IMG/VR virus record: IMGVR_UViG_3300036791_001907 | Location: 1 to 64,000 of that record | Strand: one strand, 5' to 3' | Length of the DNA stretch: 64,000 nucleotides | From: a virus | Part shown: positions 15,933 through 64,000 of the stretch, in pieces | Layout: each line of letters begins with the position of its first letter | Position numbering within the stretch: position 1 is the stretch's first letter | The notes under the pieces: model-generated | Told to the model about the DNA's origin: nothing | Database searches by the model: none | The model's input: only the letters and a program-made list of their open reading frames with translations | Made by a program: the position numbers and the translations under genes

Positions 15933-18680
15933 ATGGCCTACATTCTGCCCCAGGTGCTCGTCTTCCAGGAATTCGACATCACGCCGGCAGGGTTGACGGG
16001 CACCCTGAACGCGCACATCTCCGGACCGCACGCCTTTCTGCTCCGCTACGCGGACCCCACCGAGAAGGATCTGGCCTACCTGGGCGCGTACGATCCCCTG
16101 AACGGACTGGTCAGCAACTGGCCGCAGCGGCCGCCGGGCGGGCTTGTCGATACGACCTACACCAAGATCTACATCGACAACGCGCTGCTTCAGTACTTCC
16201 AGAACCTGATGGGCAGCGGTGATACCGTCGTGCCGGTTGCTGCCAACAAGGTTCAGCTCAACAGTCCGACTTACGGCTTCGTGGGCAATGGCACCGCCTA
16301 CCCCAGGCTCCCTGCGCTCTATGATCGTGACGTGCAGCCGGGTGACCGGGTCCATATCCGCGGCGCCGTGGCGAGTGTGAACTACGACCTCGATACTTAC
16401 GTCACGGCCATCGAATCCAACCCGGTCAGCGCAGTCGTCGGCGCCGCCTACGCGGACCAGAGCAACGGGCCCACGCAGGCCGCGACCTCGAGCGCCAGCC
16501 AGACCGCCGGCACCGACAACTCGATCACGCTGGCCGCCGACACCACCACCTACAGCGCTCTGACCGATGGGGCACTCTCCGACACCTACACGGTCACGGT
16601 GATCAACGGATCGGTCGGCGGCGACTTCACGACCGCGCAGCTGCGGATCACCACGGCCAGCGGCAATGACGACGTTCTGGCGATCGCCCCGGCGGCCGCC
16701 GGCACGGCCTTCCCGGTCGGCAACCGCGGCCTCTTGCTGACGTTCTCCCGCACCTTGGCGACCGATGATCTGATCGCCGGCCAGACCTTCGAGGTGCAGA
16801 TCCAGCAGGCATACACGGCCATCGTCGCCACCTCGGCCGGCACCTACCGCGGCTCACAGTCAACGACCTACGTGATCCAGTTCACCCAGGGCGGCATGTT
16901 CAATGCGGCCGACCCCGCGCTGCGGCCCCAGTTCAGCGCCATCACCGTGCATGGCACCGACAGCAGCCCGCCGCTGCCGGTCGACGCCCCGGCCACGGCC
17001 TACCCGGTGGGTACTCAGGGCGTGACGGTCCACTTCGGCGCCAGCCCGGACGGCGTCCGCAAGGGGGACCGTTTCTACGTCCCTGTCACCGGCGCGCAAG
17101 ATGGCCAGATGAATATCCTCGTGCTGGCCAACAACCTGCCGGCGCAGCTCTGGACGCCGACCCCGGCCACCGATCTCGATCTGACGCTCTCCGTCGAACG
17201 TGACATCATGGTCGACGAGATGGCCGGCGGCATCACCAACTGGACGCAGAGCGACATCCAGATCATTCTCAACGCGGGCATCGAGGCCTACGACGAGAGC
17301 TTCACCCAGGGGGGCGAGCCCTACGCCCTGCCGGTCATGTCCGGCCTGGTCTATGTGGAATACCGCGCCTGGGTTCCCGAGTTGTCCACCTCGGTCGGCG
17401 CGATCTACGACGTCGGCGATCTGGACGCCCTGATCAGCGGCCCCTTGACCCCCGACAACCCGCTCAAATGGGGCGTGTTCAAGGCGCTCTCGAACAGCAA
17501 CGGCACGAATGTCATGTTCACGTCCGTTGCCGATCCCGCCGACATCGACAGCTGGGACGCCGTGCTGGCGCTCCTGATCGGCCGCACCGATGTTTATAAC
17601 CTGGTGCCCCTGACGTTTGACCGCACGGTCCTCGACCTGTACGCGGCCCACGTCGATGACGAGTCGTCGCCGGAGCAGGCCCGCTGGCGGGCGCTCTTCG
17701 GCTCGATCCAGGCCACCACCCAGGCGGCGATCGTCTCCCAGGCCGACTCGACGGACGGCAACGTCGTCATGGCCACCATCGCGCAGGATCCCCAGGCTGT
17801 CGGCAATGACTTCATCATGCTGACCGTGCCTGCCCAGAACTCCGGCTTCCTGACCAACCAGGTGCAGCCCAGCGACATCGTCCGCACCAACTACGGCGTC
17901 GATCAGAACGGCAACGAGATCTACGACGAATATGTTGTTGACATTGTCCTGAATGAGGACTCGCTCCAGCTGATGTCCGGGCCCGCCGAGGCCGTGACGG
18001 TGGCCCAGAAGATCGAGATCTGGCGCTACCTGTCGAAGGACGAGATTGCCGCGGACCTTGCGACCCAGGCCGGCAGCTTCGGCGACCGGCGGGTGAAGAT
18101 GGTCTGGCCGGACACGGTCGGCTCAGGCGGCATCCTTCAGGAGGGCTACCACCTGGCCGCGGCGCTGGCGGGCCTGCGCTCGGGCGTCGTTCCCCAGCAG
18201 GGCCTGACCAATGTTCAGGTCATGGGCTTCGACGACCTGTCCCGCACCACCGACTTCCTCTCCGGAGCCCAGCTCAACACCATGGCCACGGCCGGCACGT
18301 GGATCGTGACCCAGGCCCCTGACGGGACAGTCTATAACAGGCACGCGCTGACCACGGATAACACGGATGTGAATTCTTCAGAGGAGATGGTCACGTCCAA
18401 CCTGGACTCGATCTCGTACACGTTCGCCAACCAGCTGGCGCCCTACATCGGCCGGATGAACGTCACGCCGTCAGCACTCCTGGTTCTGGGCACCGAGATC
18501 GACTCGGTGATCGACTACCTGAAGTCCAACGGGTATGTCCCCCGCCTCGGCGGTCAGCTGGTCGATGCCACGATCATCAGCCTCCAGCCGCATGCCATCC
18601 TCGCCGACCGGGTGGTCTGCGTCATCGATGTCACACTGCCCTACCCGATGAACAATCTCGAGCTCCATCTGGTCGTCTGA
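15933..18680 (+). CDS. Contractile tail sheath protein
   Basis: The sheath forms the contractile outer cylinder of a myovirus tail. Start ATG 15933 lies 11 nt after GGAGG; an upstream in-frame ATG at 15915 would contain that ribosome site, so I rejected it. The 915-aa protein ends with a typical sheath C-terminal region: GYHLAAALAGLRSGVVPQQG, NVQVMGFDDLSRTT, LNTMATAGTWIVTQ and SISYTFANQLAPYIG. The first ~400 residues contain long Thr/Ser/Ala-rich beta segments, which look like inserted surface domains. At 915 aa it is much longer than T4 gp18 (659 aa). The tube-like gene follows 56 nt downstream, as expected. Confidence 0.85.
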   Translation: MAYILPQVLVFQEFDITPAGLTGTLNAHISGPHAFLLRYADPTEKDLAYLGAYDPLNGLVSNWPQRPPGGLVDTTYTKIYIDNALLQYFQNLMGSGDTVVPVAANKVQLNSPTYGFVGNGTAYPRLPALYDRDVQPGDRVHIRGAVASVNYDLDTYVTAIESNPVSAVVGAAYADQSNGPTQAATSSASQTAGTDNSITLAADTTTYSALTDGALSDTYTVTVINGSVGGDFTTAQLRITTASGNDDVLAIAPAAAGTAFPVGNRGLLLTFSRTLATDDLIAGQTFEVQIQQAYTAIVATSAGTYRGSQSTTYVIQFTQGGMFNAADPALRPQFSAITVHGTDSSPPLPVDAPATAYPVGTQGVTVHFGASPDGVRKGDRFYVPVTGAQDGQMNILVLANNLPAQLWTPTPATDLDLTLSVERDIMVDEMAGGITNWTQSDIQIILNAGIEAYDESFTQGGEPYALPVMSGLVYVEYRAWVPELSTSVGAIYDVGDLDALISGPLTPDNPLKWGVFKALSNSNGTNVMFTSVADPADIDSWDAVLALLIGRTDVYNLVPLTFDRTVLDLYAAHVDDESSPEQARWRALFGSIQATTQAAIVSQADSTDGNVVMATIAQDPQAVGNDFIMLTVPAQNSGFLTNQVQPSDIVRTNYGVDQNGNEIYDEYVVDIVLNEDSLQLMSGPAEAVTVAQKIEIWRYLSKDEIAADLATQAGSFGDRRVKMVWPDTVGSGGILQEGYHLAAALAGLRSGVVPQQGLTNVQVMGFDDLSRTTDFLSGAQLNTMATAGTWIVTQAPDGTVYNRHALTTDNTDVNSSEEMVTSNLDSISYTFANQLAPYIGRMNVTPSALLVLGTEIDSVIDYLKSNGYVPRLGGQLVDATIISLQPHAILADRVVCVIDVTLPYPMNNLELHLVV

Positions 18681-28162: not shown

Positions 28163-28954
28163 ATGGTGAACCATGTACGCACACTTCTGCTGAACCGTCC
28201 GGCGTCGGCCGTGACGCCGATGGGCGAGTACGTGCCGCCGTCGTTCCGCACCGTGGCGCTGCCGTCCTATCTTCAGCAGGCGCGCGGGCTCCTGTTCGGC
28301 CCCCGGCCCGATGCCACGATGCTCGACTACCGGCTCCGGCAGTACATGGCGCTACTGCATTCGACCGAGCTGGTGGAGTTCGTCACCGCCCCCGATCCGC
28401 GGATCACCTACACGCCGGGCGACCGCACCATGGCGGACTTCAGCTTCGCGCCGGCGGTGCTGCCGGTCGGCCACGACAACCTGCTCTACATCGTCGGCGA
28501 TCCGCCGATCGCCACCGACGGCGGGATGGTCTACTCCTGGCAGGTCAAGGTCCTGCTTGCCGGCCGTCCGGCACCGGTCGCGGCCGTGACCCAGCGCAGT
28601 CCGGTCCAGGGTTACGTCGAGCACGCGATCAGTTACACCGAAACACTATCGAATGAGTTCCCCCTGGATGGCTCGCCGCTCCTGGCGCGCTTCGGCAGTA
28701 CCGGCATCGTCGACGGCACGACGTGGATCGTCACCTGCCTGGCGCCGCCGGCGGAGGACCCGGGCCAGGTCGCCGCCACCTTCCGGGCCGTCGGCGGCAC
28801 GATCCTGGGCCAGCTCTTCGGCGGTGCCATCGCGGAGCCTTATATCACCGGGTATTCACTCTGGGACTCCGTCCAGCCGCTGCCCTACCGGCTGGGGGCC
28901 GTGCTGCTGGCCGTCGCCACCCGGACCGATGAGATTCGCAGGGGGATCAGCTGA
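28163..28954 (+). CDS. Tail/baseplate protein of unknown function
   Basis: This 263-aa mixed-fold protein (YLQQARGLLFGPRPDATMLD, YRLRQYMALLHSTELVEFV, LPYRLGAVLLAVATRTDEIR) sits between the tube-fold protein and the hub candidate. Its end overlaps the next start by TGATG. Position suggests a baseplate or hub-assembly role. I do not recognise a family. Confidence 0.5.
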   Translation: MVNHVRTLLLNRPASAVTPMGEYVPPSFRTVALPSYLQQARGLLFGPRPDATMLDYRLRQYMALLHSTELVEFVTAPDPRITYTPGDRTMADFSFAPAVLPVGHDNLLYIVGDPPIATDGGMVYSWQVKVLLAGRPAPVAAVTQRSPVQGYVEHAISYTETLSNEFPLDGSPLLARFGSTGIVDGTTWIVTCLAPPAEDPGQVAATFRAVGGTILGQLFGGAIAEPYITGYSLWDSVQPLPYRLGAVLLAVATRTDEIRRGIS

Positions 28955-30639
28955 TGCCGTCGGACGCACCGTGGGCCCGTTATGATCCGCGGATCCGCCT
29001 GCTGGTTAGCGGCCAGGAGATGCCCTGTATTCGCTGCTCGGTGGACTACGAGCTGAACGCCATCCCGCAGGCGGCGGCAACCCTCGCCGTGGGCCGCGAC
29101 ACCTACAGCGGCGCGCCGTCGCCGGTACACGGGCTGGTCGAGAACTTCGTCGACCGGGCGCCGGCCGAGATCTGGATCAACCCCTACGCGCAGGGCCCAT
29201 CCGATAGCTCGGCGGCGCAGCCGGGCGACCTGGGCCTTCCCGGCGGCTGGGTGCGGATCTTCGACGGCTTCGTCACCGGGGCCGGTTTCAGCCGCTCCCG
29301 CGGGCATGCGCAGTTCACCATCCAGATGGAGAACTGGCTCTCGGAGCTGGGGTTCAGCTCGATCTTCTCCAAGATGAGCCACCCGGCCAATCCGGGAAAG
29401 TATTCCTTCGGGGCGCTGGGCCCGACGGGCAGCGCCGGCGCCGTCTGGGCCAACATGGCGCTCGGCGCCGATCTCATCGACGCCGGCAATCTCAGCGTCG
29501 ACTTCTGGGGCGAGGCGCTGAAGCCGTTCTTCCTGATGCTCTGTGACATGGATGCCTTCTGGGCCTGGGATCCGGCCCTCCACGGGGAGGGCGCCAACGA
29601 CGGCGCCAAGGCGGCCCTCCAGCGGTTCAACAGTCCCTGGCAGCAGCCGCTGGCCATGGACATGACGCCCGATGCGGATGTCGTCGCCAACATCGTGGCC
29701 CACATCAGTGAAACCACCGGCGATCCCTCGCAGCTGGCCAACCAGACGCTCTGGGATGTGCTGATCGGATCGTTCGCCTCCGAGTACCTGTTCGCGATCG
29801 TGCCCCGGGTCGAGGACGCGGTCGTGGCTGCGTTCCTTCCCGGCTACCGCCAGAACTTCACCACCATCTCCGCCAACACGGAGACCCAGATCGAATGGAT
29901 GCGCGGTCTCGGCCGGCCGCTCCGCGGCGTGGGCATCCTCTGCGGCACGGACTCCACCACCGGCGCCACGAAGCCCGGCGAGGGCGCTGATCCGGAACTC
30001 GGCATCGGCGGCTTCTACTCGCCCTATGCGGCCGAGGACGCCAGCGCCAAGGGCATGGTCATCATCACCCAGGGTCCGGCCTGGATGACCAAGCTTTACT
30101 GGCCCAGCCTGTACGGCGCGGAGTCCACCGGGGTCAGCGGCGGCAACGGCAACGGCGGCAACCCCGCGCAGCGGGCCGCGGGCGGCGGTAACGCCATCGG
30201 CAATGCCGTGCAGCCCGGGGGCAAGGCCGTGAACAACGTGCCGGATGACGTGAAGCAGCGCCTGAACGGCATCGTCCTGCCGTTCCTTTCCCGGTATGCG
30301 CAGGCGCGGTATGCCCTCGAGAAGCTCCGCACCCGCCAGGCCGTGTGCTCCTGCCCCTTCCGGCTCGATATTGCTCCCGGCTCGACGGTCATGGTCCAGA
30401 ACGCGGGCGAGCAGTTCATCGCGGGCGATCCGTTTGCCGCGCCGTTCTTTGCGCATGTCGCTCGCGTCTCGCTGGCCGTGGACGGCGAGCAGCCCATGAT
30501 CGGCACGTCGTTTCACCTGTCGCACATCCGCAGTGCCAAGGAGAATGGCCAGGACACGACGTCGGTCGCCTCGCATCCGCTTTACAAGCAGACCTTCGCG
30601 GGATGTCCCCTGGTCGGTAACCCCGCAAAGCAGAAGTAG
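28954..30639 (+). CDS. Putative baseplate hub protein (gpD/gp27-like position)
   Basis: The 561-aa product begins with DPRIRLLVSGQEMPCIRCSV and YELNAIPQAAATLAVGRD, resembling the first strands of gpD/gp27-type hub proteins, where a short domain with IP.A..TLA.G opens the hub fold. Other segments are an IFDGFVTGAGFSRSRGHAQF strand pair, a Gly/Asn-rich linker near residues 390-415, and a C-terminal barrel-like part (PFRLDIAPGSTVMVQ, FFAHVARVSLAVDG). It follows tape-measure and tail-tip genes, as hub genes normally do. The assignment is probable, not certain. Confidence 0.55.
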   Translation: MPSDAPWARYDPRIRLLVSGQEMPCIRCSVDYELNAIPQAAATLAVGRDTYSGAPSPVHGLVENFVDRAPAEIWINPYAQGPSDSSAAQPGDLGLPGGWVRIFDGFVTGAGFSRSRGHAQFTIQMENWLSELGFSSIFSKMSHPANPGKYSFGALGPTGSAGAVWANMALGADLIDAGNLSVDFWGEALKPFFLMLCDMDAFWAWDPALHGEGANDGAKAALQRFNSPWQQPLAMDMTPDADVVANIVAHISETTGDPSQLANQTLWDVLIGSFASEYLFAIVPRVEDAVVAAFLPGYRQNFTTISANTETQIEWMRGLGRPLRGVGILCGTDSTTGATKPGEGADPELGIGGFYSPYAAEDASAKGMVIITQGPAWMTKLYWPSLYGAESTGVSGGNGNGGNPAQRAAGGGNAIGNAVQPGGKAVNNVPDDVKQRLNGIVLPFLSRYAQARYALEKLRTRQAVCSCPFRLDIAPGSTVMVQNAGEQFIAGDPFAAPFFAHVARVSLAVDGEQPMIGTSFHLSHIRSAKENGQDTTSVASHPLYKQTFAGCPLVGNPAKQK

Positions 30640-36429: not shown

Positions 36430-37020
36430 ATGGACGGACCCAGGGCTGGCGGCAAGCACATCGCCTTCCATGTCGACGACCGGACCAGGATCTGGACTCC
36501 GATCCAGCGCCTGCACACTCCGAACACGCTGCTCTACACCTGGGGCTACATCGTCGCGCGCTCGGTCGGGATGGGCGATCCGAACTACCGGGTCGCCTGG
36601 GCCTACCTCGAGTTCGAGAACAACTCCGGCACCATTTCCGTCCCATCGTTCAGCCGCGCCGATGGGCTCCAGTACTACATGGATCTGTCATCCAGCTCGG
36701 TCCGGGACTACCTCCGGGTGCCGATCCGGCCCTACCCCGAGATCGTCGTCGCCCCCGGCTTCGAGCAGTACCTGGACCCGAGTCAGGGCAACCAGTGCAT
36801 CTTCTACGCGCAGAGCGCAGGTGGTACCGGGGTGCATGGCCGGCCATTCTCGGATGGGGTGCAGTCCAAGGTCTTCGGGATCGCCCTGGCGGCCGGCCCG
36901 GCTCCCAATGATCCGTCGCAGGACGTGCTCTTCGCCCGCAGCTACTACGACCCGGCGAACCAGGTCCCCAAGGTGCCCTCGGGACAGATCGGCGTCCAGT
37001 ATCCAATGACCTTCGAGTGA
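36430..37020 (+). CDS. Probable virion structural protein
   Basis: This 196-aa, beta-rich product has many aromatic residues (TLLYTWGYIVARSVGMGDPN, VAWAYLEFENNSGTISVPSF, DYLRVPIRPYPEIVVAPGFE). The ending SGQIGVQYPMTFE is typical of a final strand that closes a beta-sandwich. It begins 16 nt after the previous gene and is followed by the fibre-type genes. I do not recognise a family. Confidence 0.55.
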   Translation: MDGPRAGGKHIAFHVDDRTRIWTPIQRLHTPNTLLYTWGYIVARSVGMGDPNYRVAWAYLEFENNSGTISVPSFSRADGLQYYMDLSSSSVRDYLRVPIRPYPEIVVAPGFEQYLDPSQGNQCIFYAQSAGGTGVHGRPFSDGVQSKVFGIALAAGPAPNDPSQDVLFARSYYDPANQVPKVPSGQIGVQYPMTFE

Positions 37021-37038
37021 GCGCTCAGGGAGGAGCTG

Positions 37039-38853
37039 ATGCCCGGGACATGGATCAACCGCATCCAGCACGTCAACGACGGCGAGCCCGTCAGCGGCGC
37101 CGTCGACAGCCGGCCGACCCGCGGCCTCGAAGGCAACACCCAGTACCTCAAGGACCGGCTTGACTCCGCCGAGCTGGGCGAAGGGGTCTGCGCCTACGGT
37201 GAGACGGTCGAGGCCGCGGCGGCCGTCGGCATGCCCGTCTACCGCAACAGCGTCACGGCGCAGTACGAGCGGGCCTTCGCCGCCGTCGTGCCGGACCCGG
37301 CGACCGGTGTGCTCGTGCCGGCCCCGTCCTGCGACTGCGTGGGCATCATCATCTTCAAGTACAACGCCACCCTGGCCGACATCCTCCTGGGCGGCCAGCG
37401 GCAGGTCGATCTTTCGGCGGCCGTCGATCCCACGCTGCTCGTCGATGGCGTGGCGCTCCCGGGCCGGTATTACCTGTCCAGCGCCACGCCCGGCATGCTC
37501 GTCCAGCAGCGTCCCCCCGTCTCGGTCTCGGTGCTGGTCTACACCGATGACGGCCTGGCGATCGTCCAGCCGGTGCAGCGCGACTTCCTCGAAGACCACA
37601 TTCATTACAAGGTCCAGCTCTATGCGCAGCCGGCCGGAACCAATGTCATCAGCGCGGGCCGCCACTCGGTGGGTTCACCGGACCCGACCCTGCCGGGCTG
37701 GCTGCCGGCCGGCCACCCCAGCTTCAACGGCCGGGCGCCGACCGGCGCCGCGTTCGGTTACAACCTGGCGGCGCACCCGCAGCTCTCGCGGATCTTCCCG
37801 CCGATCCCCCCGTCGGGAGCGGTCGTCTACCTCGATCGCGGCGAGGACAGTACCGGCGGCAAGCTGGTCCCCATGGGTCCCGGCGGCCTGTGCTCAGTCG
37901 ACTCGTTCGGCATCTGGTGGATGAGCGACTGTCAGGATGATGCCCCCTGGCCTGTGAACTGGTCCGCCCCCATCAACGACCAGACCGGTAACGCATCCAG
38001 CGGCCCCGAATGCCCGCGGATCGTGGACTTCGTGATCACGCTGTCCTACACCATGATGGTCTTCACCACCGAGCGCACCTGTGTGACCAGCTTGCAGCCA
38101 GCCGAGGGCAGCCCGCTGGTGTTCACCGACTGCGACGGCGATCCCGCGACGACCGGCGATCTGCTGGCCGACATGGATCTCAGGTTCCTGGTCGGCCCCG
38201 GCCCGGTCACCGGCAGCCTGGTCTTCAAGGAGCTGGACGGCGCCACCTTCTATCAGGGCCTCGTGGTCGAGGGGCTGACGGCCGGCCCCGGCTGCGCGCT
38301 CTCCTCCACGAACCCGACGCCCCAACCCGGCGGCGGCACCCTCCATCAGGGGATCGTCCAGGTCGCGATCGACACGGCGCCCGCGGAGCAGGAATTGCCG
38401 GTCGACCTGATCCGGCTGGCGCAGACCGAGGAGCGGTTCTATCTCGAGATCCCCTACATCGGGTTTGACCCCGGGGTCTCGACCAGCCTGCGAATGCGTT
38501 TCTACGTCCCTCCCGACGGCCTGCCCGCCAGCCCCATGGTGGCGCTGCGGATGCAGCTCCTGGGCCGGTCCGCCGGCACGCTGCCGCAGCTCACCGTGAC
38601 CTACCGGATCCTGCCGCGGCCGCAGGTGGCGACCAACCTGCCGGACATGACCGCCGAGCAGGCCATGCAGATCGTCACCAACGTGCCGGTCGGGGCCAAC
38701 CAGTACATCGAGGTCCAGGGTACGGCGTTCTCCGTCAGCGCTGGCGACACGATCCTGGTCAACCTGGTGCGGAGCAACAACGACGGCTACACCGATGAGG
38801 TCGGGTTGCTCCGCCCGGTCGGCATCCTGACGGGCACGGGCCCGGGGAGCTGA
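37039..38853 (+). CDS. Fibre-type structural protein
   Basis: The 604-aa product opens with WINRIQHVNDGEPVSGAV then SRPTRGLEGNTQYLKDRLDS. This pattern (a short beta start, a stretch with RPT..LEGNT.YLK, then a helix) is common at the N-termini of phage fibre and tail-appendage proteins. The rest is beta-rich with several Cys residues (CDCVGIII, GPGCALSS). The ribosome site GGAGGAG lies about 6 nt upstream. Together with the five following genes it likely forms the distal baseplate appendages. Confidence 0.6.
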   Translation: MPGTWINRIQHVNDGEPVSGAVDSRPTRGLEGNTQYLKDRLDSAELGEGVCAYGETVEAAAAVGMPVYRNSVTAQYERAFAAVVPDPATGVLVPAPSCDCVGIIIFKYNATLADILLGGQRQVDLSAAVDPTLLVDGVALPGRYYLSSATPGMLVQQRPPVSVSVLVYTDDGLAIVQPVQRDFLEDHIHYKVQLYAQPAGTNVISAGRHSVGSPDPTLPGWLPAGHPSFNGRAPTGAAFGYNLAAHPQLSRIFPPIPPSGAVVYLDRGEDSTGGKLVPMGPGGLCSVDSFGIWWMSDCQDDAPWPVNWSAPINDQTGNASSGPECPRIVDFVITLSYTMMVFTTERTCVTSLQPAEGSPLVFTDCDGDPATTGDLLADMDLRFLVGPGPVTGSLVFKELDGATFYQGLVVEGLTAGPGCALSSTNPTPQPGGGTLHQGIVQVAIDTAPAEQELPVDLIRLAQTEERFYLEIPYIGFDPGVSTSLRMRFYVPPDGLPASPMVALRMQLLGRSAGTLPQLTVTYRILPRPQVATNLPDMTAEQAMQIVTNVPVGANQYIEVQGTAFSVSAGDTILVNLVRSNNDGYTDEVGLLRPVGILTGTGPGS

Positions 38854-56262: not shown

Positions 56263-56526
56263 ATGTACCACGTCAAGTACCGCGACTTCTTCGGCAAGCT
56301 CGTCCTCTGTGCGGGCCGGTCCACATTCGAGGACGCGCAGTCCGAGGCCGAAGACCATGCCCACGCGGGCCAGCGCGAGGTGGCGATCCTCATCGACCTG
56401 GACACGGCCGACGTCAGCATGGAGGTGGCCGCGGCCCTCTCCCGTCGCCATTCCCTTCCGGGGACAGCCCGACCGGGCTGCCGCGACGATGGCCGCACGC
56501 AGACGCAGGCCGCGACTCTTCGGTGA
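56263..56526 (+). CDS. Small unknown protein
   Basis: ATG 56263 lies 1 nt after the previous stop; 87 aa. The sequence MYHVKYRDFFGKLVLCAGRS, FEDAQSEAEDHAHAG, VAILIDLDTADV forms strand-helix-strand. The last part overlaps the Gp88-like gene by 38 nt and is of lower quality. The function is unknown. Confidence 0.45.
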   Translation: MYHVKYRDFFGKLVLCAGRSTFEDAQSEAEDHAHAGQREVAILIDLDTADVSMEVAAALSRRHSLPGTARPGCRDDGRTQTQAATLR

Positions 56527-57274
56527 CCCCCACATCGCCAAGCTGGGCGGGCTGATCTACCCGTTCTCGATCCCGGCCATCCGCACCTGCCCCGGCCGGA
56601 GCGGCTTCTGCGAGTCGATCTGCTATGCCGACGATGGGTTCTTCCTGATGGAGAGCGTGCGGCAGAAGCACATCGCCAACCTGAAGCGGACTCGCGAGCC
56701 CGAGTTCGTCGCTGACGCCGTGGCCGAGATCAAGTCCCGGTGCATGGGCGTCGTCCGCGTGCACATGGCCGGCGACTACTACACGGCCAAGTACGCCGGG
56801 AAGTGGGTGTCGATCGTCCGCCAGTGCCACCGGACCACCTTCCTCTGCTACACGCGAAGCTGGAAGGTCGATGCGATCCTGCCGGTCCTGGCCACGCTGG
56901 CGACCCTGAAGAACATGAACCTGTGGTTCTCCACGGACCACGAGATGCCCGATGCGCCTGCTATTCCTGGTGTGCGAATTGCCTACCTGCTGGCTGACGA
57001 CGAGGACCCGTCCCGGGTTCCCGCTGGGCAACATCTCGTCTTCCGTGACAATGAGCGCGTGCCCCTGAAACGAGCCAACGGCGTGCTCGTGTGTCCTTAC
57101 GAGCAGGGCATCAAGCGCCAGGTCAAGATCACGTGTTCCAATTGTCGGATCTGCTGGACCCCTGAGAGGAAGAAGCATCATGGCCAAGCAGCCACCGAAG
57201 AAGAAAACCGCCGCCCGCCGCGCGCCGCGCGCCGCCAAGCCCGTCCCGGCAACTCCGGCCGCTCCGGCCGCTGA
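56489..57274 (+). CDS. Gp88-family protein
   Basis: I start at ATG 56489, inside the previous gene's end, because conserved sequence begins there; this gives 261 aa. FSIPAIRTCPGRSGFCESIC places Cys at 34, 41 and 45. VVRVHMAGDYYTAKYAGKW, LCYTRSWKVDAI and NLWFSTDHEMPD follow in the order of the mycobacteriophage gene-88 family. A C-terminal Cys group (C202, C216, C219, C222) suggests a bound metal. The biochemical role is not known. The end overlaps the next gene by 95 nt. Confidence 0.65.
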   Translation: MAARRRRPRLFGDPHIAKLGGLIYPFSIPAIRTCPGRSGFCESICYADDGFFLMESVRQKHIANLKRTREPEFVADAVAEIKSRCMGVVRVHMAGDYYTAKYAGKWVSIVRQCHRTTFLCYTRSWKVDAILPVLATLATLKNMNLWFSTDHEMPDAPAIPGVRIAYLLADDEDPSRVPAGQHLVFRDNERVPLKRANGVLVCPYEQGIKRQVKITCSNCRICWTPERKKHHGQAATEEENRRPPRAARRQARPGNSGRSGR

Positions 57275-61057: not shown

Positions 61058-61278
61058 ACAAGCCCAAGTATCACCGCGGCCAGAAGTTCCGGATGGGCAG
61101 CGACGGCTCGCGGTTCGAGATCGAAAACGTGCGCGTGCTGGCACCCGATGATCGGATCGGCTACGAGCTGCGCGGCCTGGAGGAACCATTCCAGGGAATG
61201 GTTCTTCACCGCTTCGAGGCCGAGCTGGAACGCGACTTCGAGCTGGAGCCAGAACCACCAAAGGAGGACCCAGCGTAA
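61054..61278 (+). CDS. Small unknown protein, barrel-like
   Basis: ATG 61054; 74 aa. The sequence YHRGQKFRMGSDGSRFEIEN, IGYELRGLEEPFQGMVLHRF looks like a small beta barrel with an acidic end. It is the last gene before the first repeat-rich non-coding tract. Confidence 0.5.
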   Translation: MNKPKYHRGQKFRMGSDGSRFEIENVRVLAPDDRIGYELRGLEEPFQGMVLHRFEAELERDFELEPEPPKEDPA

Positions 61279-61694
61279 CGATGCAGCGAACCGACGGCCA
61301 GCGGTATATCTGGCGGTGATGGCAGCGATGGGTATGTTGCGGCGGGCCGAGCTACGTCGTGGTAGGTCCGGCAGCTGCGGTTGGGTTCGTCATGGCGAGC
61401 CGAGCATGGGTATGCTCCGTCATGGCAGCCGAGGCATGGTTTGTTGGACCATGGCGAGATGAGCTTAGCCGAGCTTCGGCGAGGCAGCCGGGGTGTGGTT
61501 CGGCGGGCTGTGCGGCGCCACGCCAGGGTTGGGCAGCTCAGATCAGGTGTGGACAGCTCTGGCCGGCAGCGCCAGGTCATGGCAGCCGAGGATAGACCTG
61601 GCCAGCCACGCGGAGCCGTCGTGAGCCGGGGCAGCATTGGCTGGTCACGTCATGACACGGCCAGTCGAGCACGGCCATGTTATGTCAGCATTGA
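61279..61694. repeat. Non-coding tract A with degenerate direct repeats
   Basis: These 416 nt hold no convincing gene. The clearest repeats are CGTCATGGCGAGCCGAGC plus ATGG (61388-61409), CGTCATGGCAGCCGAGGC plus ATGG (61418-61439) and GGTCATGGCAGCCGAGG (61575-61591). Weaker variants of ATGGC-(G)AG-CCGAG lie between them. A 6-bp hairpin GAGCAT/ATGCTC sits at 61402. The first copy of the CGGTATAT hairpin element lies at its left end. Confidence 0.6.
61288..61322. repeat. CGGTATAT hairpin element, copy 1
   Basis: GCCAG (61297-61301), loop CGGTATAT, CTGGC (61310-61314). It is flanked by GAACCGACG on the left and GGTGATGG on the right, where ACC and GGT can pair further. Copies 2 and 3 are at 62218 and 62527. 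Confidence 0.7.
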
Positions 61695-61706
61695 AAGGAG
61701 GTGAAT

Positions 61707-61928
61707 GTGTCAAAGATAGTTCATTTGATCTATCATCGCGTCCCCAACGATCGGATCTCAGACATGAGCGAGGTCGTGGGGGTCGTGACCACGGGCTGGC
61801 AGGATGCCGATGCGATCGTGGATCAGCTCAACGCGCGGGACCCATCCGGATTCGGCTGGCAGCGCGACTACTGGAAAAAGGAGGTTGATGTCATCACCAA
61901 GGATGATGTTCCGCGTCGCACTCCATGA
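61707..61928 (+). CDS. Small unknown protein with a near-perfect ribosome site
   Basis: AAAGGAGGTGA lies just upstream; this decides for GTG 61707 (5 nt spacing) over GTG 61701, which is inside the site. The 73-aa product (KIVHLIYHRVPNDRISDMSE, VVTTGWQDADAIVDQLNARD) is helical with a strand start. The strong site predicts high expression. It is framed by the two non-coding tracts. Confidence 0.6.
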   Translation: MSKIVHLIYHRVPNDRISDMSEVVGVVTTGWQDADAIVDQLNARDPSGFGWQRDYWKKEVDVITKDDVPRRTP

Positions 61929-61940
61929 CAGGAGACAGCG

Positions 61941-62207
61941 ATGATCTGTCCGGAATGCGGGCATTCCAACCCGGTGATCGCCGCCGAGTGTCTCAAGTGC
62001 CGGTGCCGGTTCCTGGAACACGGTTGTTTTTCCGAGCAGTATCAGCACCCGCTCGTCGGCAAGCGAATCCAGGTCAATACCAGGACCGGCTGCATGGCCG
62101 AAGGGGTCGTGGAGCGGGTGGTGTCTTCACGTTTCGGCCTGCTCGCCTGCCTGGAAGGCGAAAACGGCAGGGCCTGGGCCGTGAACCAATGCACGCCGGT
62201 CACCTGA
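61941..62207 (+). CDS. Small zinc-ribbon protein
   Basis: The 88-aa product has C3-x2-C6 and C17-x2-C20-x-C22, a rubredoxin/zinc-ribbon-like knuckle pair. A beta-rich second half follows (HPLVGKRIQVNTRTGCMAEG, VVERVVSSRFGLLACLEGEN) that could be a small barrel. It may bind nucleic acid or protein. AGGAGA precedes the ATG. The second non-coding tract begins right after it. Confidence 0.6.
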   Translation: MICPECGHSNPVIAAECLKCRCRFLEHGCFSEQYQHPLVGKRIQVNTRTGCMAEGVVERVVSSRFGLLACLEGENGRAWAVNQCTPVT

Positions 62208-62217
62208 CCGGCGTCAT

Positions 62218-62252
62218 GGACCGATGGCCGGCGGTATATCCGGCGGTGGTGG
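62218..62252. repeat. CGGTATAT hairpin element, copy 2 (compensatory stem change)
   Basis: GCCGG (62227-62231), loop CGGTATAT, CCGGC (62240-62244). Compared with copies 1 and 3, both sides of one stem pair have changed (A-T to G-C), so pairing is kept while the loop is identical. Confidence 0.7.
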
Positions 62253-62526
62253 CTAGCCCTGGCGACATCAGCAATGGTCGCGCGAGCACTGCCGTGGCGC
62301 GTTCAGGCAGTACAGGCGGGGTGATGCGGGCAACGGCAGGGCCGGGTCCGTCCGGCGATGTCATGCCACGGTATGGCAGCTCAGGTGAGTTCAGATCGGC
62401 CATGCGCGGGCTGGCTGCGGTGACCAGAGGTGGGTCGAGCCGTGGCGAGGCAGCGTAGCCATGGAAGGGTCGGGTCGGTTGAGCTGCGGCGAGCCCAGCT
62501 GACGCAGGGCTGGCCGCGGCAGCAAA

Positions 62527-62561
62527 GAACCGATGGCCAGCGGTATATCTGGCGGTGACGG
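62527..62561. repeat. CGGTATAT hairpin element, copy 3
   Basis: GCCAG (62536-62540), loop CGGTATAT, CTGGC (62549-62553), flanked by GAACCGATG and GGTGACGG. It is nearly identical to copy 1 across 27 nt, while the sequence on either side diverges. Confidence 0.7.
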
Positions 62562-62706
62562 GAAGCATCGGCAGCGACGGAATGGCAGGGCAAGTTGCGT
62601 CTTGTTCCGGCCAGCCAAGTCATGGCTGCGTCGTATTGCCGATCACTACGAGGACGATCCGCCTGCGCGGTGGATCGGAACACGTACTGAACACCCTACA
62701 GTTGCA

Positions 62707-62727
62707 GGGCCGCGGGACGCGCGGCCC
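62707..62727 (+). promoter_or_regulatory. GC hairpin in the leader of the 303-aa gene
   Basis: GGGCCGCG pairs with CGCGGCCC around GGACG, ending 27 nt before the ATG. No T-tract follows, so attenuation or mRNA protection is more likely than simple termination. Confidence 0.4.
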
Positions 62728-62754
62728 GTCTCACTGGCGACAAAGGATGATCCA

Positions 62755-63666
62755 ATGCCAGCCAAGAAAGGTCCGGCCAAGGGGACAGTCCCGGTCAACA
62801 TCCCCCAGCCACAGATCCTCGACTTCGGGATCGGACTCATCGGCGTGACGCCGACGATCTCGAACGCATTCCCGCAGAAGATCCGTGAGAAGCTCGTGGC
62901 TGATCACATGCACATGCCTGAGGCCCTCATCCCCCACGAGGCCAAGGACCCGTGCGCCAACTTCAGCGCGTGCATCCACTACGTCAAGTCCAAGGACGGT
63001 GGGGTCAACTTCGCCATGCCCGGCTCCTCGTTCAAGGGGGCCATGGTCGCGGCGTGCCGGATGACCAACAAGAAGTTGGACATGGCCAGTGCCAAGCAGT
63101 TCTTCCAGGTGATCCCGTTCCGGGTCCAGATGTACGGCGACGAGCCGATCATGTGCGAGCACCGGGTCCGCAACGACAACGGCGGCGTCGACATCCGGCA
63201 CCGGGCCATGTACTGCCGTTGGTCGGTGATCCTGCCGATCCGCTACCACGCGGGGTCGATCTCCAAGGAGTCCCTGATCTACCTGGCGGAGCTGGCCGGC
63301 TTCGGCTGTGGCATCGGTGACTGGCGGATCGCGGCGCCCAAGAGCCCCAACGGGCAGATGGGCGCCTTCCGCGTGGCCCGCGAGGGCGAGATCGTCGGCC
63401 CGGCGTACTCCAAGTGGTGCGCCAAGAACCCGTTCGACTGGGACGAGTTCGAGCAGTACGGCATCGTCCCGCCCGCGCGGGTCGAGTACTACCGCAAGGC
63501 CGCCGAGATGGTTCGCGGCCTGCCGCCCGAGCAGCGGGGCACGCCCAAGAAGGGCAAGAGCCGGAAGGCTGTGCCCACCGCTGCGGCCGCCGCGGCGATC
63601 ATCAACGGCGTCCAGCCCGTCGACGGCCTTGAGCCGCCCGATGACGGCTACGTGCCGCAGCAGTAA
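62755..63666 (+). CDS. Conserved phage protein of unknown function (303 aa)
   Basis: Start ATG 62755 after AAGGATG; 303 aa. The first 60 residues end in NIPQPQILDFGIGLIGVTPT, ISNAFPQKIREKL. The core reads NFAMPGSSFKGAMVAACRM, FRVQMYGDEPIMCEHRVRND, DIRHRAMYCRWSVILPIRYH, AELAGFGCGIGDWRIA. I have seen this order (F/P-x-SFK-A-V-A-R, then R-x-R-x-x-F-x-W and GIG-W-R) in many phages without known role. PGSSFKG and the later GIG turn also recall RAMP/Cas7 folds, but this is weak. The Lys/Ala-rich tail is probably disordered. Confidence 0.55.
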   Translation: MPAKKGPAKGTVPVNIPQPQILDFGIGLIGVTPTISNAFPQKIREKLVADHMHMPEALIPHEAKDPCANFSACIHYVKSKDGGVNFAMPGSSFKGAMVAACRMTNKKLDMASAKQFFQVIPFRVQMYGDEPIMCEHRVRNDNGGVDIRHRAMYCRWSVILPIRYHAGSISKESLIYLAELAGFGCGIGDWRIAAPKSPNGQMGAFRVAREGEIVGPAYSKWCAKNPFDWDEFEQYGIVPPARVEYYRKAAEMVRGLPPEQRGTPKKGKSRKAVPTAAAAAAIINGVQPVDGLEPPDDGYVPQQ

Positions 63667-63741: not shown

Positions 63742-64000
63742 ATGCCATCGGGTGTCAAGAAGAAGTCATCAGCGCCGGCGCCGGCGCTCAAGTACGAGTT
63801 CCGGGCCTGCTTCCGGAGCCCGCTCGATCCCAACGTCGTCGCGGCGCGGCTCGAATGGCTCAGAACCAGACTGAGCCGGGACCCGGAGGGTCAGGACGTC
63901 CTGGAAGACGCCCGGCCCGTCGGCTCGCCGTTGCATGATCACTTCGACTGGAATGACTACGAGGCCGGCGAGAAGCATCGGCTCGGCCAGGCCACGGATC
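63742..64000 (+). CDS. Unknown phage protein, truncated at the window end
   Basis: ATG 63742 opens a frame that runs off the window; 86 residues are visible. YEFRACFRSPLDPNVVAARL is followed by GSPLHDHFDWNDYEAGEKHR LGQA. The SPLH-x-x-F-x-W-(N/D)-D-x-x-A-x-x-xR-x-x-QA pattern is one I associate with small phage proteins encoded beside the preceding 303-aa type. The 75-nt gap before it shows only a weak ribosome site (AAGGA). Confidence 0.55.
   Translation, partial: MPSGVKKKSSAPAPALKYEFRACFRSPLDPNVVAARLEWLRTRLSRDPEGQDVLEDARPVGSPLHDHFDWNDYEAGEKHRLGQATD

Follow-up and report, generated by a model that had tools for sequence, protein, structure and literature searches.

A probable VIPR system with a large putative vrRNA guide array and repeated, covarying pseudoknots in a viral contig

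The end of the window, the 64,000-nt stretch of DNA analysed here (bases 1-64,000 of a virus record contig of 161,481 bases), very probably carries a VIPR system, in which a Vipr homologue is accompanied by an extensive array of vrRNA guides; we put the probability of this reading at about 0.93. VIPR was described in April 2026 (PMC13142463; bioRxiv 2026.04.26.720920). According to the main text of that paper, a phage encodes the RAMP protein Vipr together with vrRNAs, in each of which 9-16 YNNGG repeats are followed by a 3' tail; DNA is read by the NN pairs, one base being skipped. The targets are rival phages and satellites, with some vrRNAs aimed at other VIPR systems. Seven VIPR types with differing arrays are distinguished, staggered arrays (of overlapping vrRNAs), hammerhead-interspersed and single-guide arrays being named, and VIPR is proposed there as a forerunner of CRISPR. 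A search of the literature since 2025 for VIPR and vrRNA gave no other paper among the matches listed. The region analysed here holds a Vipr homologue with a predicted RAMP fold, guide tracts that, with one exception, have 8-15 pentamers with variable NN (here YNNGS), and a putative accessory gene beside vipr. The initial annotation had described a repeated hairpin that it could match to nothing known. Since the array and the adjoining gene match VIPR as the main text of PMC13142463 presents it, the region is of a kind already known. The features of the window end are collected in Table 1.

Table 1. Predicted features at the end of the window (window coordinates)
Feature	Position	Strand	Remark
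Pseudoknot copy 1	61290..61318	+	S1 ACCG/CGGT, S2 GCCAG/CTGGC, then GGTG; 5' of guide block A; 11 nt past gene stop
Putative vrRNA block A, period-5 tract	61319..61690	+	7 guides of at least 8 pentamers, 4-nt resets
Small ORF between blocks	61701..61928	+	No family in Pfam/PHROG search
Small ORF	61941..62207	+	Weak zinc-ribbon match, below cut-off
Pseudoknot copy 2	62220..62248	+	S2 GCCGG/CCGGC; past gene stop
Putative vrRNA block B	62249..62528	+	4 guides
Pseudoknot copy 3	62529..62557	+	Sequence match, covariation
Putative vrRNA block C	62558..62640	+	1 guide: guide 14, 62577-62623
vipr homologue, 303 aa	62755..63666	+	phrog_4652; predicted Cas7/Csm3-like RAMP fold, residues 17-211
Near-target of guide 14 in own vipr	62854..62883	+	Codon register, 18/20 bases
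Candidate vap accessory gene	63742..64000	+	phrog_15946; continues to contig 64275, outside the window

Results

The repeated element as a predicted pseudoknot

The motif GCCRGCGGTATATCYGGC was present exactly at 61297, 62227 and 62536, which bore out the three copies of the initial annotation, and all three lay outside likely genes, as had been proposed. With up to three mismatches, four matches were obtained in the window against 0.38 expected, and at least four were reached in 0 of 100 shuffles; the fourth match, with 3 mismatches, was at 16494. A narrow pattern of the element found four exact copies across the whole contig. Altogether, 12 forward copies were recognized in the contig, eleven at 61.3-67.5 kb and one at 85.3 kb, starting at 61290, 62220, 62529, 64284, 64679, 65051, 65635, 66233, 66737, 67133, 67485 and 85319. 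The element is thus real, and the count of three holds for a part of it. The sole reverse-strand match (57608, 3 mismatches) was not counted as a copy.

In a gap-free alignment of the 12 copies, eleven read ACCN-AYG-GYCRS-NGGT-ATAW-SYGRY-GGTG, the exception being the copy at 85319 with TCCG and CGGA in S1. The pairing is crossed, ACCN with NGGT and GYCRS with SYGRY, and gives S1 of 4 bp, L1 of 3 nt, S2 of 5 bp, no junction and L3 of 4 nt. The element is therefore predicted to be an H-type pseudoknot with covarying stems. Pairing was kept in all 108 pair cells (12 copies, 9 pairs), and both sides had changed in five of the nine pairs, over 17 cells. The S1 changes included G-C, C-G and U-A as well as A-U to U-A. 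Over all pair cells, GU occurred 3 times and UG once. The exchange of GCCAG/CTGGC for GCCGG/CCGGC, noted before as compensatory, was present in S2. The covariation score was equalled by none of 500 shuffles, and pairing dropped to 28-48% when the partner was shifted by 1-3 columns. The bare geometry gave 70 matches in 140 kb on both strands, 12 of them the copies themselves; because it is so frequent by chance, the evidence lies in the shared sequence and the compensated changes.

A plain hairpin was ruled out, since the NGGT or NGGA half of the supposed loop pairs and covaries with the upstream ACCN or TCCN. The 8-nt loop CGGTATAT, formerly taken as invariant, varies over the 12 copies, and its first half is paired upstream, so that it is no loop. 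A known RNA family was also rejected, as Rfam gave no match in the window at the gathering score or in 61.2-68.0 kb up to E 0.5. No relative of the pseudoknot sequence was detected by a narrow and a wide exact scan of viral_contigs. Blastn with 61200-62760 against phages and plasmids and megablast with window 1-25000 against phages returned no match. Furthermore, no excess of a generic H-type pseudoknot was seen at the array flanks of vipr-bearing loci; a score of at least 13 was reached in 8 of 100 5' flanks and 10 of 95 3' flanks, compared to 4 of 103 random stretches and 11 of 95 reverse complements of the 3' flanks. The earlier proposal of a functional RNA with conserved, compensated structure and additional copies thus agrees with the 12 copies and their covariation, at the level of sequence.

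A five-nucleotide register between the pseudoknots

The DNA around the copies had been regarded as diverged. It was not merely diverged, as it held a strong 5-nt period. Lag-5 identity in the tracts between copies was 0.397 compared to a background of 0.262, and identity stayed high at lags 10, 15, 20 and 25. When bases 1-100,000 were scanned in 300-nt windows, the period-5 signal exceeded the threshold only at 61,251-67,851 and 85,251-85,601, and none did so in 100,001-140,000. A five-phase model described the tracts better than composition alone (log-likelihood -4411 vs -5191). The pentamer consensus was Y-N-N-G-S. Phase 4 was occupied by G in 753 of 804 pentamers, and phase 5 by G in 46% and by C in 33%, so that the consensus is YNNGS and no strict GG. 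Protein-coding tracts were ruled out by the period of 5, not 3, and a TRAP-like ring by the varying lengths of the tracts.

The register was interrupted by 73 reset units of 4 nt, mostly CAGC (40), followed by CAGT (10), CCGT (6), CCGC (5) and CAGG (5). Intervals between resets equalled 4 mod 5 in 60 of 61 cases, the commonest length being 59 nt. Among the 84 pieces between resets, 63 had at least 8 pentamers, 62 of these holding 8-15; the 21 pieces with fewer than 8 were left out of the guide count. The array therefore likely contains about 63 readable guides, as judged from the register. The tract at about 66169-66218 was omitted from the segment list behind the pentamer, reset and guide counts and was read by eye. 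Individual guides had no 3' tail; each ended in a 4-nt reset and the next guide followed. Within the array, pseudoknot copies were separated by period-5 tracts at a spacing of about 310-600 nt, or by genes at a larger spacing.

A small ORF (MIGPKCECRK...) lies within a guide block at contig 65937-66152 (5937-6152 of the stretch L005); tract flanks it on either side, as though it had entered the array by insertion.

The Vipr homologue and its neighbour

The gene downstream of block C matched phrog_4652 with an E of 4.6e-12, and the gene of Escherichia phage SUSP1 that is flanked by four vrRNA tracts likewise belonged to phrog_4652. A profile was built from the window protein and 90 homologues (90 of 95 dereplicated ones were used, with 19-34% identity to the window Vipr), SUSP1 being left out. 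This profile matched the PDB entry 36pp, 'SUSP1 Vipr protein', with an E of 1.4e-13. The AF2 model of residues 1-235 had a pLDDT of 87.9, compared to 33 for a single-sequence fold, and its top fold matches were Csm3/Cas7 (Foldseek E 7.9e-06; VIA Z 11.6, 153 aligned). 36pp was absent from the best 50 rows of either fold table, the fold library ending on 2026-04-08; the identity as Vipr relies on the profile match. PADLOC assigned no family to the window Vipr, the SUSP1 Vipr or the vap candidate, and a search for related loci with the window Vipr confirmed none.

In 82 of 112 vipr loci, the gene after vipr had a homologue on the vipr strand whose start fell within a range from 1.2 kb upstream to 1.5 kb downstream of the vipr ORF end. 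Since this neighbour is so often kept, the gene 3' of vipr is a good candidate for a vap accessory gene.

Arrays occurring together with vipr

The array pattern, defined as a G every five bases around GGCAG, was found in at least 120 viral_contigs loci. Among the 120 listed, 119 had a tract of at least 20 pentamers, L010 being the one without, and 97 encoded a Vipr homologue within the fetched stretch, the loci having been picked by the array pattern alone. The array and the Vipr gene were on the same strand in 92 of these 97. The initial annotation had held that an element limited to the three places, with no relatives in other phages, would speak against a function; the array proved to be widespread, and the pseudoknot sequence itself had no relative in the two exact scans of viral_contigs. 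In genome_contigs, at least 119 stretches matched, and 15 of the 119 listed encoded Vipr. With 97 of the 120 listed viral_contigs loci encoding a Vipr homologue, the array pattern finds such arrays from DNA alone and offers a way to catalogue them.

The 15 genome_contigs loci with a Vipr homologue near the pattern match (L133, L137, L158, L160, L184, L187, L188, L189, L205 and six more) are on contigs titled Aureimonas, Atopobiaceae, Planctomycetaceae, Eubacterium, Lachnospiraceae and others, and are perhaps prophages. In arrays of other phages (L112, L077, L079, L056, L100), GTY, GCA or GGA was seen by eye in place of GGY, with the G every five bases kept.

Guide 14 and the search for DNA targets

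Guide 14, situated between pseudoknot copy 3 and vipr, has the NN pairs AC AT AG AA GC TT CC CA AA AT. When it was read with a 1-nt skip, its near-target was ACG ATC TCG AAC GCA TTC CCG CAG AAG ATC, that is, TISNAFPQKI, and all 10 residues fitted. The one mismatched dinucleotide was AG against TC, both possible in serine codons. With the NN order permuted in 1000 trials over 100 kb, 18 matching bases were never reached and 17 once; moreover, among 126,000 permuted guides none fitted Vipr with one mismatch or fewer. In the simplest reading, guide 14 is aimed at a rival's vipr, the own gene being partly immune by its codon choice; guide 14 may also be a self-regulating guide. Exact skip-rule scans of viral_contigs with guides 14, 27 and 40 gave no match for any of them, a rival vipr gene fitting guide 14 included. 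The match of guide 14 lies in the gene family of its own VIPR system, and the codon choice there is plausibly self-sparing.

For 463 guides against 2.14 Mb of DNA, matches of at least 85% numbered 26 with a skip of 1 and 15, 16 and 19 with skips of 0, 2 and 3, a slight excess. For 385 sense guides (n of at least 10), 3 matches with at most one mismatch were obtained compared to 0-2 with permuted guides, and 25 compared to 15-23 with at most two, which is barely above the null. NN usage in this phage was best described by codon positions 1-2 among six codon frames (-2022.7, against -2032.3 for a uniform model). In 83 other loci the same model was the best of six in 29, and in the pooled data the uniform model was superior to every codon model.

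Guide 0 of the locus L095, from another phage, decodes to VGVGEWRPEK, nine of ten residues of a conserved Vipr G-loop in L017, L036, L051, L055, L057 and L066. It is possibly a case of VIPR against VIPR; as matches with at most one mismatch also occur in the null at that depth, it is to be taken as suggestive only.

Comparison with described systems

As a control, a model of the same kind, with the threshold lowered to 8 pentamers, was applied to SUSP1 (KT454805, first 45 of 90.7 kb). It returned exactly four tracts, one upstream and three downstream of vipr, as given in the main text of PMC13142463. That text names no accession for the protein, and we take the gene at 28474-29061 to be Vipr because of its size, its position among the tracts and the PDB match described above. 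SUSP1, of type II, resembles the present contig in its phrog_4652 Vipr, its YNNGG-like tracts and its tract ends (GGCAG, GGTAG or GGGTAG). In contrast, the contig likely holds about 63 guides instead of 4, joined head to tail through 4-nt resets, whereas those of the SUSP1 clade are each capped by an invariable 3' tail, a feature not seen here. The pseudoknot stands 5' of the blocks, in SUSP1 in the 3' tail, and the Vipr is 303 aa long compared to 195 aa. The gene downstream of vipr is of phrog_15946 and not of phrog_5926, the family of the SUSP1 gene that we read as vap1, so that a vap1 of the SUSP1 kind does not adjoin vipr here. Against the four guides of SUSP1, the contig accordingly shows many more, together with a structured punctuation that covaries strongly. 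Unlike hammerhead-interspersed VIPR arrays, it showed no hammerheads between guides (Rfam, window and 61.2-68.0 kb).

Mycobacterium phage Donkeykong (NC_051648) encodes a Vipr homologue, gp49, with 29.6% identity over 60% of the window Vipr. A tract of 71 pentamers, with the G in all of them, is located just upstream of gp49 and under gp48, which is annotated as a hypothetical protein. Since gp48 (3459-3805 of L249, about 36885-37231 of the record) overlies this vrRNA-like tract, the gene call is probably spurious. Donkeykong thus presents a VIPR-like system in a laboratory host.

The Csm3/Cas7 RAMPs of class 1 CRISPR systems share the predicted fold over residues 19-210 (VIA Z 11.6, rmsd 3.8, 153 aligned) and, following the main text of PMC13142463, the logic of an RNA-guided filament. 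They differ from the window Vipr in their identity of about 12%, in the CRISPR repeats, which are lacking here, and in the register, every sixth position in CRISPR RAMPs (same source) compared to 5 nt here. A CRISPR array was rejected, because the pseudoknot copies are spaced by period-5 tracts or genes and the RAMP matches Vipr.

Position and possible role of the pseudoknot

A tract followed the pseudoknot in all 12 copies. Four copies (61290, 62220, 64284 and 85319) came 5-12 nt past a gene stop with no tract between, and four blocks, namely A, C and those of copies 67485 and 85319, had no pseudoknot at their end. By these positions, the pseudoknot belongs to the 5' side of blocks that hold 1-9 guides each. 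Such a layout, with a pseudoknot 5' of multi-guide blocks, is absent from the main text of PMC13142463.

In the reading as a VIPR system, transcription would cover the array at 61.3-67.8 kb as well as the short block at 85.3 kb, each Vipr subunit would bind about one YNNGS pentamer by reading its G, and the free NN pairs would base-pair with the rival's DNA under the published NNx rule of a 1-nt skip and repress it. The pseudoknot would then be a structured 5' handle or cap, which may protect or nucleate the Vipr-RNA complex, or it may mark the processing of blocks. The role as 5' handle is tentatively favoured, at somewhat less than even odds. It is possible, and hardly to be called probable, that the region represents an undescribed class of VIPR array. 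This class would have many guides per transcript, CAGY punctuation, one 5' pseudoknot handle and up to about nine targets per Vipr-RNA complex or precursor. The phage would spare its own vipr from the anti-vipr guide by drawing on the alternative set of serine codons (TCG, against AGN as read by the guide), because wobble changes cannot escape the code.

The pseudoknot might instead be the 3' tail of the preceding guide, comparable to the capping tail of SUSP1 type II vrRNAs. Eight of the 12 copies indeed come after a tract, via CAGC or CAGT and an A-rich linker (the tract before 66233 was read by eye), and a tail pseudoknot is reported for the SUSP1 clade in the main text of PMC13142463. The tails of SUSP1 vrRNA2 and vrRNA3 allow, among other pairings, a pseudoknot of like topology (S1 4, L1 2, S2 7, J 1, L3 7), and none was found in the tested tail strings of vrRNA1 and vrRNA4. 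However, the four copies behind a gene stop, the four blocks with bare ends and the tract after every copy make a 3' tail unlikely. A self-cleaving ribozyme or an RNase site, either of which would divide the array into its blocks, would suit the placement at block borders and the conserved unpaired AYG, ATAT and GGTG that flank the stems, and ribozyme-interspersed arrays of other VIPR types are mentioned in the main text of PMC13142463. Nevertheless, no Rfam family, hammerhead included, was detected in the window (gathering score) or in 61.2-68.0 kb (up to E 0.5), and we regard such a cutting site as somewhat unlikely.

A DNA element, such as origin iterons or a partition or packaging site, could also account for regularly periodic DNA in which structured sites are repeated close to genes. 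The G-U pairs suit RNA, however, and the period of 5 with its 4-nt resets, the presence of vipr with the array in so many listed loci, mostly on the same strand, and the decoding of guide 14 to Vipr all argue for RNA guides, so that a DNA element is highly improbable. The DNA hairpin site for replication, recombination or packaging, offered earlier as an option, likewise found no support. A decayed pentanucleotide satellite devoid of function, which slippage is able to produce, has hardly any credibility: conservation is confined to the G together with Y and S, NN being close to random, the pseudoknots are compensated, and arrays of this design are found again in diverse viral loci, the aligned Vipr homologues being as diverged from the window Vipr as stated above.

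Two further observations were made in the neighbourhood of the array. A GP88-family protein (Pfam PF17338, E 2.2e-33) is encoded upstream of it, at window 56309-57274. A GC-rich hairpin followed by CTCCTT, noticed by eye immediately behind the final guide block of the main array (7842-7875 of L005), is perhaps a terminator.
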